A DNA stretch of 13,298 bases, from NCBI GenBank assembly GCA_029460375.1, contig JARPAQ010000130.1, positions 1 through 13,298 on the forward strand. Direction: 5' to 3'. Made by a program: the position numbers and the translations under genes. This DNA is from Nitrososphaerota archaeon (GTDB lineage Archaea; Thermoproteota; Nitrososphaeria; Nitrososphaerales; JACPRH01). Positions 3,939-13,298 of the stretch are shown one piece after another (positions within the stretch are counted from its first letter, which is position 1; the number at the start of each line of letters is the position of its first letter). A model generated the notes under the pieces. That model was not told the DNA's origin and did no database searches. It saw only the letters and a program-made list of their open reading frames with translations.

Positions 3939-4809
3939 TTGAAAAAGAGTACAGCTATGGTCGGAGTGTTACTTGTAGGTGTCCTTTGGGGTAGTGCTCC
4001 GACTGGCACTGTTATAGCACTAGATGGTCTTAACGTCTGGGATATCTCCTTCTTACGGGCAGTATTCGCTTCACTGGTTCTTCTACTATTTCTTCGTAAT
4101 CTATCATTCCTTAAGATGTCCAGAGATGAGTTTCTGAAGATCTCTCTTCTGGGTATTTATGACGATAGGAATAAAATTCTCTACACCGATACAAGTCTCT
4201 CTCTTGGTTAATACCAGTCCTCTGCTCGTAGTTTTATTGGCGCACACACTTCTATCCGAATCCCTAACTAAAGCCAGATTATTCGGTGTATTCTTAGGGC
4301 TCATAGGAACATATATAGTAATAAGCGGAGGCCAGATACTCAACCTATTCTCTTCAGAAACACTCTTCGGAGATATCTTTGCACTCGCAACAGCAGGATG
4401 CTGGGCTATCTATATGATAGTTTACCGCAGATACGTTAATCAGATGAAGCTGACACATAGCCAGATAACAGCAAACATCTTCATCATAGCCATATTCACC
4501 CTGCTACCAGCGGAACTAGCATCATCATCTCTCAATAATATACTTCAAGCACCAATTGAAGCTCTACTGGCTACTCTCTGGCTTGGCGCCGTATCTTCAG
4601 GTCTAGGCTTCATAGTTATAAACAGAAGTTTAGCTGTCCTAAAAGCCTCAGTAGCCGCGGTTAACCTTATGATAGTTCCTTTGAGCGCCATAATTATAGC
4701 CAACCTGATACTTGGCGAAGAGATAACTCCCTACAAGGCTGCTGGAGGACTCCTTATTGTACTCGGCATCACGATATCTGAGCTGATTGGCCGCAATAGG
4801 CATAAATGA
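3939..4809 (+). pseudogene. EamA/DMT-family transporter, frame-disrupted
   Basis: Two overlapping frames together make one 10-TM EamA (drug/metabolite transporter) protein. Frame 1 (3939-4211, TTG start) gives TM1, with LLVGVLWGSAPTGTVIAL, and TM2, then goes out of frame after LKISLLGI. Frame 2 (open from 4138, ATG 4159, stop 4809) resumes with a typical TM4 (SLLVNTSPLLVVLLAH) and carries TM5-TM10, including the second EamA repeat. The switch must fall between 4138 and 4211. When the frames are joined, about 8-10 residues of TM3 are missing compared with the usual spacing, so the lesion looks like a small deletion with net frameshift rather than a single miscalled base. Third-position usage also changes across the break (G/T-rich before, A/C-rich after), so recombination or misassembly is possible. 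The substrate is unknown. Alternatively, a shorter protein is made from 4159. Confidence 0.72.
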
Positions 4810-4852: not shown

Positions 4853-5287
4853 ATGAACCTGTGTGTGTTCTGCAAAATTGTAAACCATGAGGCAGACGCA
4901 GTTACAGTGTATGAAGACGAAGAAACAGTAGCCTTCATGGATAAAGAACCATTTAACCTAGGCCATACCCTAGTAACGCCAAAGAAGCATTACAAGTTCA
5001 TTACAGATATGCCGGAGAATGAGGTCTGCAGCCTCTTCAAGGTTGTAAGCAGAGTAGCCAAAGCAGTATTAAAAGCAACAAGATCAGACGGTCTGAACTT
5101 AGGCCAGTCGAACGGAGAAGCTGCTTCACAGCAGATATTTCATGTTCATGTCCACATAATACCTCGTTTCAAAGGTGATGCAGAAGACAGTATGTTTCCT
5201 CCTAGAAAACAACCCAGTCTTGAAGAATTAAAAGAGTCTGGAAGACGTATCCAAGATGCGTTAGGACTCACTAAAAGTGAGCTGTGA
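4853..5287 (+). CDS. HIT-family nucleotide hydrolase/transferase
   Basis: The 144-residue protein has the histidine-triad signature HVHVHIIPR, with H97, H99 and H101. H99 is the expected nucleophile that attacks the alpha-phosphate of nucleotide substrates such as AMP-lysine or dinucleoside polyphosphates. The N-terminal CVFC pair (C4, C7) is typical of zinc-binding HINT-like members. The conserved region ending DGLNLGQSNGEAA precedes the triad, and the C-terminus is a charged helix. The true in vivo substrate is not known for archaeal members. The ATG at 4853 gives the standard opening. Upstream there is only a weak TATA-like CTATACATAG (4810-4819). The 3' end overlaps the convergent regulator gene by 17 nt. 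Confidence 0.92.
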   Translation: MNLCVFCKIVNHEADAVTVYEDEETVAFMDKEPFNLGHTLVTPKKHYKFITDMPENEVCSLFKVVSRVAKAVLKATRSDGLNLGQSNGEAASQQIFHVHVHIIPRFKGDAEDSMFPPRKQPSLEELKESGRRIQDALGLTKSEL

Positions 5288-5666
5288 AGGGTTTATCACA
5301 GGCCTTACAATCATCAGTTTCGAATGATGGCTCCATCTTCTTATGAAAGTTGCATAACAACTTATGCTTCCTAATATAGTCACATATATCAGTAATCTTC
5401 TCCACCACTTCAGGCCGATTGGGATTCCCTTCAAGTAGCATCTCAGTTAGCTCATCCACTGATCTACATATATCCCTATTATCATCAAACTTCAAGGCTA
5501 CCGCCCTTGTTCTACGCAGGTAGTTACTTATAGCGGCCTGAGTTACTCCCAGCTTATCCGCCACCTCCTTCTGAGTAAAACTATGCTCTCTGATAAGGTT
5601 CTTTGCAACCATGTATCGTATCGCTGGAATTGCTGAGCGATAAATTACCTCGTAAGGAAGTATCAC
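5271..5666 (-). CDS. XRE/COG2522-like helix-turn-helix regulator with C-terminal Cys cluster
   Basis: The protein has 131 residues from the GTG at 5666. The N-terminus (LPYEVIYRSAIPAIRYMVAK) and the HTH at about 30-52 (TQKEVADKLGVTQAAISNYL) match archaeal predicted regulators of the COG2522 type. The C-terminal part has C95, C105, H108, C120 and C123 in the order CDY...LCNFH...CKAC, which may bind zinc or an Fe-S cluster; that is inference. I prefer GTG 5666 over TTG 5672 because a strong TATA-like box (5688-5696) is centred 26 nt from the GTG, fitting a leaderless transcript. The gene is divergent from the 981-residue dehydrogenase, 119 nt away, and a 5-bp inverted repeat overlaps its own start, so autoregulation and control of the neighbour are plausible. 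The 3' end overlaps the HIT gene. Confidence 0.82.
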   Translation of the reverse strand: MILPYEVIYRSAIPAIRYMVAKNLIREHSFTQKEVADKLGVTQAAISNYLRRTRAVALKFDDNRDICRSVDELTEMLLEGNPNRPEVVEKITDICDYIRKHKLLCNFHKKMEPSFETDDCKACDKPFTAHF

Positions 5667-5677
5667 AAGCAATGTGA
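5663..5677. promoter_or_regulatory. Inverted repeat over the regulator start, possible operator
   Basis: TCACA (5663-5667) and TGTGA (5673-5677) form a perfect 5-bp inverted repeat with a 5-nt spacer. It covers the predicted transcription and translation start of the regulator. A dimeric HTH protein bound here would block its own promoter. TGTGA also recurs at 5774-5778 in the facing promoter. Confidence 0.35.
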
Positions 5678-9703: not shown

Positions 9704-10876
9704 TTACAGTAACGATCTGGCTAGCTTCATAGCGAAGATGGGGTGTGAGAGAAGTTTCTTCGCGACTTTCCTAATTTCGAACCCATTCGCCAAGTCTAGT
9801 ATATCATCTGCTTTCAGAATCTCCTGAAGTAGATTTAACTCATTGTCACTCAGTTTCTCTATAGCTTGCATAACCTTCAAGCTCTTCTTGATTCTTCTAC
9901 CCCAATCTTCATCATATTTCCTATTGAACTCCTCCAACCTAGCCTTAGAGCAGTCTCCTTCAGAAGATACAGACGCAGCAACCTCCCCTGCAAACAGACC
10001 GGCCACTACAGAAGAATGAATTCCAGCACCCGTCAAAGGTACAACCATACCCGCAGCGTCTCCAATTAGCATAGCGCCGTCAAGAATATTCTGCTCAATT
10101 ATACCGCCTATAGGTACAGGTGCTCCTCGATAGTCGATTATCTGTCCTTTTCCAAGCTCCTTCTCGAAGAGCTTTACAAACCGATCTAAATGCTGTTTAG
10201 CCGGCGCACCTCGGACACCTACACCTACTTCCGTTAACTTTTCGCCCTTCGGAAATATCCAAGCATAACCTCTGGGCGCAATCTCGTTACCTAAGTAGAA
10301 CCTCACAGAGTCTGGATACTCAAGATTACAGTTCACCATAGTGTACTGAACCGTTGGTATAGGCTCAGATTTTTCATTTATGCCGAGGTTTCTAGCAACC
10401 GTCGAATTGTAGCCATCAGCACCTATAACCACATTCACCTTATACTCTCCCCGCGAAGTCTTAACAACCATTAATTTATCAGAAGACCTACCGATCTCCT
10501 GAACCTCCTCTCTCACCCTGATGTGAGCTCCAGCCTCCGCTGCCTGAGCAACTATCTCCTGCAAGAACAGTGTCTTGTTTATCGAAAAACCAATCTGATC
10601 AATATGCACATACTTCATATTAGGAGCAAAGACCATAGCGTCTGCTCTGTGCATAACTATACTCGGCTTCGCCTCTACACCAGCAGTCTCCAAGGTCTTC
10701 TGACTCGTAGCTTCCCCACACGGCTTTGACGCCATAATCGTAGGCTGCTTCTCTAAGAGAATCGTCTTCGCTCCACCTAAGGCTGCGCTCTTCGCTGCTG
10801 ATACTCCTGCTGGACCAGCTCCAACTATCAGAACATCATAGTTCTCCATGTTTTTCTTCGACACCGTGGTCGGCAT
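9704..10876 (-). CDS. Geranylgeranyl reductase-family FAD protein
   Basis: The protein has up to 390 residues. An N-terminal FAD-binding DVLIVGAGPAG (14-24) is followed by KPCGE (51-55), the conserved Cys motif near the flavin in geranylgeranyl reductases. GADGYNSTVAR (152-162) and GYAWIFPKG (203-211) resemble the substrate-site motif of archaeal enzymes. GDAAGMVVPLTGAGI near 272-286 is the second FAD-phosphate motif. The family saturates geranylgeranyl chains of archaeal lipids or quinones; some members act on other substrates, so the precise role is inferred. Starts are uncertain: ATG 10876, GTG 10864 (about 25 nt from the TATA-like box at 10884-10892, leaderless) or ATG 10849; all keep the FAD motif. 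It is divergent from iscU and probably followed in the same direction by mdh. Confidence 0.87.
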   Translation of the reverse strand: MPTTVSKKNMENYDVLIVGAGPAGVSAAKSAALGGAKTILLEKQPTIMASKPCGEATSQKTLETAGVEAKPSIVMHRADAMVFAPNMKYVHIDQIGFSINKTLFLQEIVAQAAEAGAHIRVREEVQEIGRSSDKLMVVKTSRGEYKVNVVIGADGYNSTVARNLGINEKSEPIPTVQYTMVNCNLEYPDSVRFYLGNEIAPRGYAWIFPKGEKLTEVGVGVRGAPAKQHLDRFVKLFEKELGKGQIIDYRGAPVPIGGIIEQNILDGAMLIGDAAGMVVPLTGAGIHSSVVAGLFAGEVAASVSSEGDCSKARLEEFNRKYDEDWGRRIKKSLKVMQAIEKLSDNELNLLQEILKADDILDLANGFEIRKVAKKLLSHPIFAMKLARSLL

Positions 10877-10883
10877 TACCCTG

Positions 10884-10892
10884 ACATAAATC
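10884..10892 (-). promoter_or_regulatory. TATA-like box for the flavoprotein gene
   Basis: On the reverse strand this reads GATTTATGT. Its centre is about 25 nt from the GTG at 10864 but only ~12 nt from the ATG at 10876, which argues for a start downstream of 10876. Confidence 0.4.
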
Positions 10893-10915
10893 TGTAATCC
10901 TTACTCAGTAAAGAA

Positions 10916-10925
10916 GATATATATT
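10916..10925 (+). promoter_or_regulatory. TATA box for the iscU-iscS operon
   Basis: GATATATATT predicts transcription starting near 10946-10947. That is downstream of the ATG at 10934 and just upstream of a GGAGG site, so it excludes 10934 as the iscU start. Confidence 0.5.
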
Positions 10926-10948
10926 GCATAACCATGGTTATCTTATCT

Positions 10949-10953
10949 GGAGG
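10949..10953 (+). promoter_or_regulatory. Shine-Dalgarno site deciding the iscU start
   Basis: GGAGG, the clearest ribosome binding site in the window, lies 7 nt before the ATG at 10961 and 4 nt before the adjacent ATG at 10958. It selects one of these over the upstream ATG at 10934. Confidence 0.6.
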
Positions 10954-10960
10954 ATTAATG

Positions 10961-11359
10961 ATGAGCCAGTACGGCAGCATGGGGTACACCGAAAAGGTCA
11001 TGGAGCACTTCAGAAACCCCCGAAACGTAGGTGAAATCAAGGACGCAGACGCAGTGGGATCAGCTGGAAACCCAGTATGCGGAGACCTTATGACAATATT
11101 CCTGAAGATAAAGGATAAGAGAATAGTGGATATCAAATTCATGACCTTCGGATGCGGAGCAGCCATAGCTTCAAGCAGCATGGCTACTGAACTCGTCAAA
11201 GGGAAGACGCTTGAAGAAGCTGCTAACCTCAGCAAGCAGGCTATAGCTGACGCCTTGGACGGTCTCCCACCGATAAAGATGCACTGCTCGGTACTGGCTA
11301 CAGAAGCCATAGAAGCAGCTCTGAAAGATTACTACTCAAAGCACCCTTCTAAATCCTGA
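10961..11359 (+). CDS. iscU: Iron-sulfur cluster scaffold protein IscU
   Basis: The 132-residue protein (from ATG 10961) has the family opening YTEKVMEHFRNPRNVG. Cluster ligands are C40 (NPVCGD, with the labile-cluster D42), C65 (FGCGA) and C109 preceded by H108 (MHCS). It builds [2Fe-2S] or [4Fe-4S] clusters for transfer to apoproteins. LPPIK at 102-106 resembles the LPPVK loop that the HscA chaperone recognises in bacterial IscU. It is the first gene of an operon, with iscS 23 nt downstream, and has a good TATA box and GGAGG. An upstream in-frame ATG at 10934 would add nine residues but precedes the predicted transcription start. The family call is very secure. Confidence 0.94.
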   Translation: MSQYGSMGYTEKVMEHFRNPRNVGEIKDADAVGSAGNPVCGDLMTIFLKIKDKRIVDIKFMTFGCGAAIASSSMATELVKGKTLEEAANLSKQAIADALDGLPPIKMHCSVLATEAIEAALKDYYSKHPSKS

Positions 11360-11382
11360 GCCTCTATAAGGATGGGAGCAAG

Positions 11383-12621
11383 ATGCCTATGGATACTCCG
11401 CGCCACATAAACTTCGACTATGCAGCAGGATACCCAGTAGACCCAGAGGTCTTCAAAGCTATGGCACCTTACTTCACAGAACGGTACGGTAACCCTTCAT
11501 CTCTTTATGCTCTAGGTGTCGAAGCTAGAGAGGCTTTCGCCGAGGCTCAGATAAGAGTAGGTGAACTTGTTGGAGCAGAGTCGCCTGAGCGGGAGATATT
11601 CTTCACTTCAGGTGCTACTGAGTCGAATAACCTCGCGTTGAAAGGGTATGCCTTCAGGAATAGGCGTAAGGGTAACCATATAATTACATCTTCGATCGAG
11701 CATATCTCAACCATAAATATCACAAAGTATCTTGAGAGAAACGGCTTTGCTGTCACTCGTATTCCCGTTGATAAATACGGAGTAATCAAGATCGACGCGC
11801 TTAAAGCCTCAATAACCGATGAAACCATCCTCGTATCAATTATGTACGCCAACAACGAGTTGGGAACGGTGGAACCTATCAGTGAAGTAGGCAAGATCAC
11901 TCGTGAAAAGAAGATCGCCCTCCACGTAGATGGAACCGTAGCGGTAGGAAAGATACCTGTAGACGTAGTGGACGATAATATAGACATCCTTACGATGTCG
12001 TCTAATGACATATACGGCCCGAAAGGAGTCGGCGGATTATACGTGAGACTCGGAACAGTAATCGAACCTATACTTCAAGGCGGAGGCCAGCAGAGAGGAT
12101 TAAGATCAGGCACTGAAGATATACCTAGTACGGTGGGTTTCGGGAAGGCTGCTGAACTGGCCAAACGTAGGATGCCTGATGATTCGAAGTACACTTCTGG
12201 GCTTCGGGACAGACTTGTGAAGGGGATGCTGAATGAAGTGGAGGATAGTTACATCCACGGTCACCCGACTAAGAGGTTGCCTGATATTGCACTTGTACGA
12301 GTCTTCGGGATAGAGGGTGAAGCTATAGTGACCGAGTTGGATAGAGAAGGTATCTATATTTCTACAGGTTCTGCGTGTGCTTCCAAGACTCTTGCTCCTT
12401 CCCATGTGTTGGAATCTATCGGGCTTAATGAGATTCAGAGGCATGGTGCGCTGCAGTTCTCTTTCTCTCGTCTTAATCGTGAAGGTGATGTCGATAAGTT
12501 GCTCTCTGTTCTGCCCGGTGTAGTGAAGAGGTTGAGAGATATTTCACCTGTTTGGAAGTTCAAAGACAGGTTTCTAGAGATGTATACTTCGGAGGAGGAA
12601 GAGGAGTTTGAGCAGTTCTAG
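11383..12621 (+). CDS. iscS: IscS/NifS-like protein lacking the PLP-binding lysine
   Basis: The 412-residue class-V aminotransferase-fold protein is clearly homologous to cysteine desulfurases: FDYAAGYP, TSGATESNN (75-83), IEH (H107), ANNELG (156-161), HVDG (D183), RGLRSGTED (238-246) and the loop STGSACAS with the sulfur-accepting C332. However, the signature SGHKIYGPKG reads SSNDIYGPKG: the PLP Schiff-base lysine is D209 and the preceding His is N208. The usual Gln near the PLP ring is V186, and the arginine that binds the substrate carboxylate (RFSLGR) is Q358 (LQFSFSR). The reading frame is intact and the rest well conserved, so it is not simple decay. An Archaeoglobus fulgidus IscS with Asp at the lysine position is known from structural work with IscU. 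Standard desulfurase activity is doubtful; a cluster-assembly partner role is likely. The tail is Glu-rich (402-408). It follows iscU in an operon. Confidence 0.9.
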   Translation: MPMDTPRHINFDYAAGYPVDPEVFKAMAPYFTERYGNPSSLYALGVEAREAFAEAQIRVGELVGAESPEREIFFTSGATESNNLALKGYAFRNRRKGNHIITSSIEHISTINITKYLERNGFAVTRIPVDKYGVIKIDALKASITDETILVSIMYANNELGTVEPISEVGKITREKKIALHVDGTVAVGKIPVDVVDDNIDILTMSSNDIYGPKGVGGLYVRLGTVIEPILQGGGQQRGLRSGTEDIPSTVGFGKAAELAKRRMPDDSKYTSGLRDRLVKGMLNEVEDSYIHGHPTKRLPDIALVRVFGIEGEAIVTELDREGIYISTGSACASKTLAPSHVLESIGLNEIQRHGALQFSFSRLNREGDVDKLLSVLPGVVKRLRDISPVWKFKDRFLEMYTSEEEEEFEQF

Positions 12622-12914
12622 CTGGTGCTGTTTACCCTCTTGTTTATCTCATCAGCCATCTGGTGACGGGAAAGTATAGCAGTAGCCTTCGTTACTCCGT
12701 CTATATCCGATACTCGTTTCTTTATGTCTTGACCTATAGCTAATGCGAACACTGGAGGACAGAACGGCATAGTAAGGTGGTACTCCACCGTAACTTCACC
12801 ATCCTTGATTTCTATGTTGTCAACAAGCTTCATCTCTGTGATTGGAACACCTATCTCAGGATCTATAACTTTAGCCAGCTCTTTCATGATACCTTCTTTA
12901 TCGACCAACTTCAT
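12618..12914 (-). CDS. MIP18/DUF59 family Fe-S assembly protein (SufT/PaaD-like)
   Basis: The 98-residue single-domain protein has IDPEIG at 17-22, a beta-hairpin (IEIKDGEVTVEYHL) and the conserved Cys in PFCPP (C52). These are hallmarks of the MIP18/SufT/PaaD family, small proteins that help mature Fe-S proteins. Placement beside iscU-iscS and the TusA-like gene supports that role here. It is convergent with iscS and overlaps it by 4 nt, the two stop codons sharing a CTAG. The ATG at 12914 has a TATA-like AATAATATAC (12937-12946) centred about 27 nt upstream on the reverse strand, fitting a leaderless transcript. The exact client is unknown. Confidence 0.88.
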   Translation of the reverse strand: MKLVDKEGIMKELAKVIDPEIGVPITEMKLVDNIEIKDGEVTVEYHLTMPFCPPVFALAIGQDIKKRVSDIDGVTKATAILSRHQMADEINKRVNSTS

Positions 12915-12936
12915 ACCTCACAGTATTGATATTCAA

Positions 12937-12946
12937 GTATATTATT
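12937..12946 (-). promoter_or_regulatory. TATA box for the DUF59 gene
   Basis: On the reverse strand this reads AATAATATAC, centred about 27 nt before the ATG at 12914, with no Shine-Dalgarno site between. Confidence 0.5.
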
Positions 12947-12963
12947 AATGTATCCCAGACTCG

Positions 12964-12975
12964 AAAAGTATATCC
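12964..12975 (+). promoter_or_regulatory. TATA box for the TusA-like gene
   Basis: AAAAGTATATCC predicts transcription from about 12997, a ~10-nt leader before the TTG at 13008. It lies inside the alternative longer reading frame that would start at ATG 12948. Confidence 0.4.
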
Positions 12976-13007
12976 ATAGACCAAACATCCCATTATGTGT
13001 AGGCGTC

Positions 13008-13262
13008 TTGACAGACCAAAACACGGAAGCACCTAAGCCAGATAGAACGCTTGATGTACTCGGCTTCTTCTGCCCCGAGCCGATATTTAGAACTAGGATG
13101 GAGATGGATCAGATGAATCGAGGAGAGATACTTGAAGTCTTAGCTGACGATCCCGCCGCTGAATCTGATATAACATCTTGGGCTAACAAAACAGGTCAGG
13201 AAGTCTTATCCATAGATAAGGACGGCGACTTGCTCCGCTTCCTCATAAAAAAAGTCAAATAA
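13008..13262 (+). CDS. TusA/SirA-family sulfur carrier protein
   Basis: The protein has 84 residues from the TTG at 13008. The core PDRTLDVLGFFCPEPIFRTR carries the family's CPxP motif with C22, the cysteine that takes a persulfide. It is followed by the helix and the GEILEVLADDPAAESDI strand-loop of the small two-layer fold. TusA proteins relay sulfur to tRNA thiolation, molybdopterin or dissimilatory sulfur pathways; next to iscU-iscS it may deliver sulfur for cluster assembly (inference). The frame is open back to an ATG at 12948 (104 residues), but those 20 extra residues are not family-like and contain the best TATA box. I therefore prefer TTG 13008, though the longer form is possible. 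The last 36 nt of the window after the stop hold nothing recognisable. Confidence 0.85.
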   Translation: MTDQNTEAPKPDRTLDVLGFFCPEPIFRTRMEMDQMNRGEILEVLADDPAAESDITSWANKTGQEVLSIDKDGDLLRFLIKKVK

Positions 13263-13298
13263 AGGATCATAACATCAGAAGCCTATAGTTATAGAAAT

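Follow-up and report, generated by a model that had tools for sequence, protein, structure and literature searches.

The iscS gene in the window (the whole stretch of 13,298 nucleotides analysed here) codes for what is, judged by its residues, a Lys-less IscS of the Archaeoglobus fulgidus type. Since the protein would form no internal PLP aldimine and the presumed cysteine-binding arginine is lost too, we infer that it does not carry out cysteine desulfuration. The explanation we favour, with a probability of roughly 0.6, is that it is a non-desulfurase IscS which hands persulfide from TusA on to IscU, or acts as a ligand of the nascent cluster, or both. The genes of the Lys-less family tend to adjoin a sulfur-carrier gene, which suggests that the family receives the sulfur for Fe-S clusters from this carrier. 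The lysine-to-aspartate oddity is already known from A. fulgidus IscS; new are the lineage-wide package of residue changes, the TusA/DsrE neighbourhood of Lys-less iscS genes and a window family in which SufB/D was not found.

The window gene and its surroundings

The preliminary description had read Asn-Asp in place of the His-Lys pair of cysteine desulfurases, and the sequence together with the list of open reading frames bears this out (Table 1): TCT at 12001 (S207), AAT at 12004 (N208) and GAC at 12007 (D209) are followed by the codons for IYGPKGV. We take this site to be H205-K206 in E. coli numbering, the V186 column to be that of the PLP contact Q183 and the Q358 column to be that of the arginine which binds the substrate carboxylate in desulfurases. 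Set against a PLP-dependent cysteine desulfurase, the window protein has the fold and the catalytic-loop cysteine (C332) and lacks the Schiff-base lysine (D209), the substrate arginine (Q358) and the PLP glutamine (V186). The sequence marks of an A. fulgidus-type IscS are present: a non-Lys residue, loss of Gln and Arg, a retained Cys and an iscU gene directly upstream.

Table 1. Features of the iscU-iscS-tusA region of the window
Feature	Position	Strand	Basis or remark
IscU scaffold	10961..11359	+	PF01592; above the TIGR03419 cut-off; start picked among several ATGs
Lys-less IscS homologue, 412 aa, NifS/IscS group I fold	11383..12621	+	ORF, alignment, fold match
GTA = V186; Gln at the same column in 66/66 Lys-type sequences	11938..11940	+	Alignment
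AAT GAC = N208-D209 at the His-Lys site	12004..12009	+	Sequence, alignments
TGT = C332, catalytic-loop cysteine, kept	12376..12378	+	Sequence, alignment
CAG = Q358; Arg at the same column in 66/66 Lys-type sequences	12454..12456	+	Alignment
DUF59 / FeS_assembly_P (MIP18/SufT-like)	12618..12914	-	Between iscS and tusA
TusA-like sulfur carrier	12948..13262	+	PF01206, CPEP motif; true start perhaps further in

The best fold matches of the window IscS are IscS/NFS1 chains, and the matches include the IscS-TusA complex of E. coli (3lvj). Among solved structures, A. fulgidus IscS matches best (4eb5, E = 6e-125), the alignment being gapless across SSNDIYGPKGV. Among the 25 of 28 NCBIfam models listed, no curated cut-off was reached: the best model, TIGR03402, scored 461.8 against 530.75 bits and the protein fell below the cut-off in each of the others. 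The AlphaFold model (mean pLDDT 82.6) has poor confidence at residues 234-243 and in the Cys loop (331-352) and is uninformative on binding of a cofactor or of TusA. P0001 and P0042 are nearly identical to the window protein; among the matches listed, the nearest named homologues come from MAGs called Thaumarchaeota, Nitrososphaerota or Nitrososphaerales.

The order of genes in the window is iscU-iscS-(DUF59)-tusA. The IscU possesses C40, D42, C65, K106, H108 and C109. The tusA gene lies near iscS on the same strand, with 312 bp between the open frames, and the DUF59 gene adjoins tusA in family member G315 too. DsrE gave no match in positions 9907-13298 of the window (locus L001; the contig ends 36 bp past tusA) nor in 18 kb of G315 (locus L266).

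Elsewhere in the window, an HTH protein with a Cys-rich tail (5271-5672, minus strand) is a candidate Fe-S regulator; its relatives directly follow iscU at the two Lys-less loci of genome G432 (L272 and L273), and a search of 20 further Lys-less loci found none. An EamA-type transporter (3939-4809, plus strand) is apparently split into overlapping ORFs (3939-4211 and 4159-4809), perhaps by a frameshift or an assembly error.

Residue package, clade and genomes of the Lys-less proteins

Among the best 120 of 7,999 scored relatives of the window protein, every one has Asn at the His site; at the Lys site 118 have Asp, P0020 has Thr, P0021 has Asn and none has Lys. Asp recurs among the homologues, as the preliminary description had thought possible, and N208-D209 is no artefact. 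A base error at AAT GAC is ruled out by this count and a decaying iscS by comparison with the G315 gene (pN 0.135, pS 0.887, pN/pS about 0.15, with pS saturated); no point in support of error or decay was found, and we give that explanation practically no weight.

The substitution is part of a package. In an alignment of 133 Asp-type and 66 Lys-type sequences (two other aminotransferases, one fragment and one window duplicate were dropped, and P0020 and P0021 were set aside), the residue that we take to be Gln183 is Ala, Val or Ser in 133/133 Asp-type sequences, His205 is Asn in all 133 and the presumed substrate Arg is Val, Leu, Gln or His in all 131 that are ungapped there, versus Gln and Arg in 66/66 Lys-type sequences; these E. 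coli numbers and residue roles are our assumption. R92, S109, N112 and R306 are invariant in 16 Asp-type representatives and K335 is Lys in 15 and Arg in one; some variants of a wider set deviate there.

This wider set holds 257 distinct sequences (160 Lys-less and 97 Lys-type); like the other sets it was gathered by similarity to the window, so that the fractions given are not prevalences. The Lys-less site reads Asn-Asp in 151 sequences, Trp-Asp in three, Gly-Asp in two and Gln-Asp, Asn-Pro, Asn-Thr and Asn-Asn in one each. The loop Cys, whose retention in the window had been pointed out in the preliminary description, is kept in 160/160 Lys-less sequences, T79, H107, N157 and D183 (also numbered T75, H104, N155 and D180) are invariant in 160/160, and neither Gln nor Arg occurs in any of them; Gln, Arg or both are missing in 9 out of 97 Lys-type rows. 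Asp does occupy the site as described earlier, as one of several changes and not as a single swap: Lys, Gln and Arg are lost together. Nor is Asp strictly required, given Thr and Asn at the site and Trp, Gly or Gln before it, which weakens the idea of Asp as a replacement catalyst. That the Schiff-base Lys disappeared along with the substrate Arg speaks for cysteine desulfuration having been given up. The universal loop Cys, together with IscU cluster residues that are complete in 42 out of 43 Lys-less partners (the remaining one is gapped), argues that this Cys still meets IscU. The invariant pocket residues may hold a structural cofactor or serve an unrecognised chemistry.

A tree of 86 representatives was inferred by a quick method with the signature columns removed; G432's IscS (L238) was stood in for by L239, which is 80% identical. 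It placed 41 out of 42 Lys-less representatives, the window among them, in one group (SH-aLRT 93). The Asn-Pro variant (L156) fell apart from this group, so Lys was lost twice on this tree, and the Asn-Thr and Asn-Asn variants are nested inside the window's subclade, where Asp was probably lost again. The Lys-less proteins form essentially one clade, present in archaea and some bacteria. Individual deviations are Gln-Asp in L176 (G302) and Asn-Pro in L184/L156 (G309).

The preliminary description had envisaged a wider archaeal lineage; the clade is indeed wider and is not archaeal only. Asn-Asp was found in 14 of the 80 genome-contig loci listed (575 relatives), nine titled archaea and five bacteria (Desulfobacteraceae, Desulfobacterales, another deltaproteobacterium, Aminicenantes and WOR-3). 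The DNA pattern Asn-Asp-x-Tyr-Gly-Pro-x-Gly matches at least 15 of the 300 genomes sampled from the window's phylum and at least 37 of the 294 from that of G312 (which holds a Methanosaeta-titled contig), both being lower bounds since Trp-Asp and Gly-Asp variants and at least one Asn-Asp genome (G297) escaped. A scan of viral contigs gave eight relatives, with 34-42% identity.

The window makes up the entire contig C92 of genome G000 (1,050,468 bases in 192 contigs, 88.3% complete), which belongs to an uncultured archaeon and in which the Lys-less IscS is the only IscS-like match. No Lys-type protein with the Cys motif was recognised in it or in G087, among matches mostly above about 100 bits. 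Besides the Lys-less IscS, just one desulfurase-like protein was found in the window genome: L002 (G000:C192, 1357-2463) is class-V aminotransferase-like, with SGHK and no recognisable catalytic Cys loop, and falls below the cut-off of every family listed. Of the 27 genomes with the Asp type that were examined, all have IscU, 8 have the SufB/D core and 25 also hold a Lys-type protein with the Cys motif, so that a cell without cysteine desulfurase does not follow generally. Within the window's family, G314 and G315 possess a Lys-less IscS with IscU plus a Lys-type IscS, G317 the Lys type only and G316 neither.

According to PMC10500019, homologues of core SUF components are encoded in virtually all archaea. 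The SufB/D core, searched for as the mark of an SMS/SUF system, gave no match in the window genome (88.3% complete) or in any of the other window-family genomes (five in all, G000 and G314-G317; completeness 61-95%), versus matches in 49/49 other sampled genomes of the window's order. In the window's phylum, SufB/D occurs in 3 of 15 pattern-positive versus 245 of 285 other genomes (P = 7e-8), or in 8 of 22 versus 240 of 278 when seven Lys-less genomes missed by the pattern are added (P = 5e-7); in the phylum of G312 it occurs in 29 of 37 versus 241 of 257 (P = 0.005). These counts were tallied by eye and the tests ignore relatedness. This is an association, not a rule that Lys-less IscS implies loss of SufB, as most pattern-positive genomes of the G312 phylum have SufB/D.

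TusA, DsrE and IscU beside Lys-less iscS genes

With the window TusA as query, matches were found at 19 out of 22 Lys-less loci and at none of 66 Lys-type loci. The three misses are two loci that begin at or just before iscS (L010 and L030) and one that ends inside it (L267); one of the 19 matches (L273) lies 5.9 kb from iscS. A frame with one common motif stands between tusA and iscS in 13 of the 17 loci inspected, and all five such frames submitted to a Pfam scan are DsrE-like (PF02635). The final count of neighbours was made with TusA and DsrE profiles built from the Lys-less loci, with extra flanks, on distinct proteins with at least 1.4 kb upstream; the TusA profile also recovered divergent TusAs (E = 1e-10 to 1e-13).

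At the 28 Lys-less loci, TusA was found within 1.5 kb in 24 cases, DsrE in 17, either of them in 25 and IscU in 26. The corresponding numbers for 80 Lys-type loci with Arg, a set that is not pure group I since it includes at least one SufS-like row (L103), are 1 for TusA, 0 for DsrE and 54 for IscU. Lys-type proteins without Arg amount to 11 distinct rows, fragments included; of the 8 with enough flank, 2 have TusA (both also DsrE) and 7 have IscU. The contrast of 24/28 with 1/80 (Fisher P = 8e-19) ignores relatedness and overstates independence, the Lys-less loci being related and their gene order partly inherited. The TusA and DsrE matches closest to iscS share its strand at every Lys-less locus. 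With 17 of 28, dsrE is no constant companion of Lys-less iscS. Three loci have neither: L266, of the window's family, with TusA at 2.4 kb; L267, where the contig ends inside the gene; and L156, the Asn-Pro variant outside the clade. Another 18 Lys-less loci with shorter flanks gave TusA at 15, DsrE alone at 1 and neither at 2. The Cys-Pro of TusA is kept in 18/18 sequences and one Cys of DsrE is invariant in 13/13.

These counts support TusA as the possible sulfur source that the preliminary description had put forward, and point to it as a possible persulfide donor for the Lys-less IscS. They reject exclusivity of the link to Lys loss, given the two out of 8 Arg-less Lys-type loci with TusA and DsrE. 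The pairing with IscU is usual, as had been expected, and not constant (26/28), nor is it specific to the Lys-less type, since 54/80 Lys-type loci also have an IscU. In genomes that hold both types, 11 Lys-type copies with enough flank have TusA at none and IscU at one, so IscU stands mainly beside the Lys-less protein there.

Genome G432 carries two Lys-less copies. One, which agrees with 4eb5 over 378 residues but for one visible difference, has dsrE directly upstream, iscU downstream and tusA 5.9 kb away; the other stands in the order tusA-dsrE-iscS-iscU.

Two further arrangements were observed. L281 and L282 (G100 and G046) carry a Lys-type, Arg-less IscS alongside IscU, DsrE and TusA and may have come to the same relay independently. 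A second IscS-like family beside IscU (L274, L275, L276, L277 and L278, in G066, G154, G196, G059 and G285) has Tyr-Lys, His104 changed to Pro, Gln183 changed to Asp and Arg lost, i.e. Lys is kept and much of the pocket is gone; a SufS-like gene lies on the same contig in G066, G196 and G285, and TusA was not found within the flank searched.

A proposed sulfur relay, its alternatives and known systems

The window IscS retains its fold, its Cys332 loop, its IscU neighbour and some of the cofactor pocket, on which the relay that we favour builds. At many of its relatives an adjacent DsrE-like protein would perhaps charge TusA with persulfide, which TusA would pass to the loop Cys of the Lys-less IscS (Cys332 in the window); Cys332 would then give sulfur to IscU and/or serve as a ligand of the nascent [2Fe-2S] cluster, the latter being a compatible second role beside the relay. 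Which way the sulfur flows, that TusA touches IscS and that Cys332 ligates the cluster are inferences drawn from neighbouring genes and conserved residues. A relay from DsrE/TusA through the IscS Cys to IscU is favoured on account of the TusA link, the precedent for contact in 3lvj and the uptake of sulfur from sulfide by A. vinosum DsrE (PMC3397948). Against it, the window tusA lies downstream, behind an opposite-strand gene, that of G315 is 2.4 kb away and that of the 4eb5-like G432 copy 5.9 kb, and DsrE was seen neither in the window nor in G315; the TusA and DsrE profiles derive from Lys-less loci; TusA at two Arg-less Lys-type loci and at one with Arg shows that its link is not exclusive to the Lys-less type; and neither a pure relay nor a cluster ligand need call for the invariance of T79, H107, N157 and D183.

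The last point would fit a pocket that still binds PLP or PMP and runs a slow or different reaction without Lys, and A. fulgidus IscS is said to have been isolated with PMP bound; the absence of Arg from 160/160 Lys-less sequences and the change of Asp to Thr or Asn in two close relatives make such altered chemistry distinctly improbable to us. That Cys332 only ligates the [2Fe-2S] cluster of IscU, with sulfur coming from free sulfide and TusA/DsrE serving tRNA or cofactor thiolation or other purposes, is the published proposal for A. fulgidus IscS as regards the ligand (PMC7585200) and agrees with the intact IscU site and with a rescue test in E. coli in which sulfide served the SMS scaffold (PMC12192291). 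It gives no reason for TusA to accompany the Lys-less iscS and almost never the Lys-type one, and we think it rather unlikely. TusA could instead be the acceptor, as in E. coli, where IscS gives sulfur to TusA (PMC3397948): tRNAs or cofactors would be thiolated with sulfur that the Lys-less IscS-IscU pair hands to TusA, or TusA would compete with IscU. With both the Schiff-base Lys and the substrate Arg gone, it is not obvious what sulfur such a protein could hand on, and this direction of flow seems to us a poor prospect.

Extending the relay beyond the window is more tentative, and we put it somewhat below even odds: a widespread ISC variant in which DsrE and TusA charge a dead IscS that acts as a persulfide conveyor to IscU, the IscU-bound IscS never touching cysteine, and which would provide the main Fe-S scaffold where SufB was not found, e.g. 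in the window's family. What began as one odd protein would then stand for a variant way of assembling Fe-S clusters, spread across a lineage of archaea and some bacteria. If so, many proteins named cysteine desulfurase, several of the best 120 homologues among them, are not desulfurases, and the Cys loop and the docking to IscU can be reason enough for an IscS to persist. A link between TusA/DsrE and Lys-less IscS was not found in the titles and the beginnings of abstracts of open-access papers, to which the search was confined. In the sections seen of PMC7585200 the sulfur source of A. fulgidus-type IscSU is left open, and the conserved TusA(-DsrE)-IscS-IscU neighbourhood offers a concrete candidate donor.

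The closest known system is that of A. fulgidus, a parallel drawn in the preliminary description which stands: its IscS (4eb5, 4eb7 and 4hvk; 4r5f is the D199K mutant) shares the SSNDIYGPKGV segment with the Asn-Asp site, the Cys and the fold, is 49-51% identical to the window protein and is changed at the Gln and Arg positions too (Ala and Leu in the G432 copy L238). It is reported to have no desulfurase activity, its Lys being replaced by Asp, and its Cys to be a ligand to the [2Fe-2S] cluster in IscU (PMC7585200). The loci differ in that tusA is downstream and no dsrE was seen in the window, whereas dsrE is beside both G432 copies and tusA beside one. IscS1 of M. acetivorans, encoded with IscU1, reportedly lacks the catalytic Lys too, and that genome has a functional IscSU2 in addition (PMC7585200). 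E. coli IscS, which has a solved TusA complex (3lvj), and human NFS1, both of group I, have the fold, the Cys loop and the IscU partner in common with the window IscS. In contrast to it, they keep the Lys and use it. The minimal ISC system (MIS), an IscS-type protein plus scaffold with no carrier according to PMC12192291, has a cysteine desulfurase, whereas the window IscS is predicted to be a non-desulfurase and lies near TusA.
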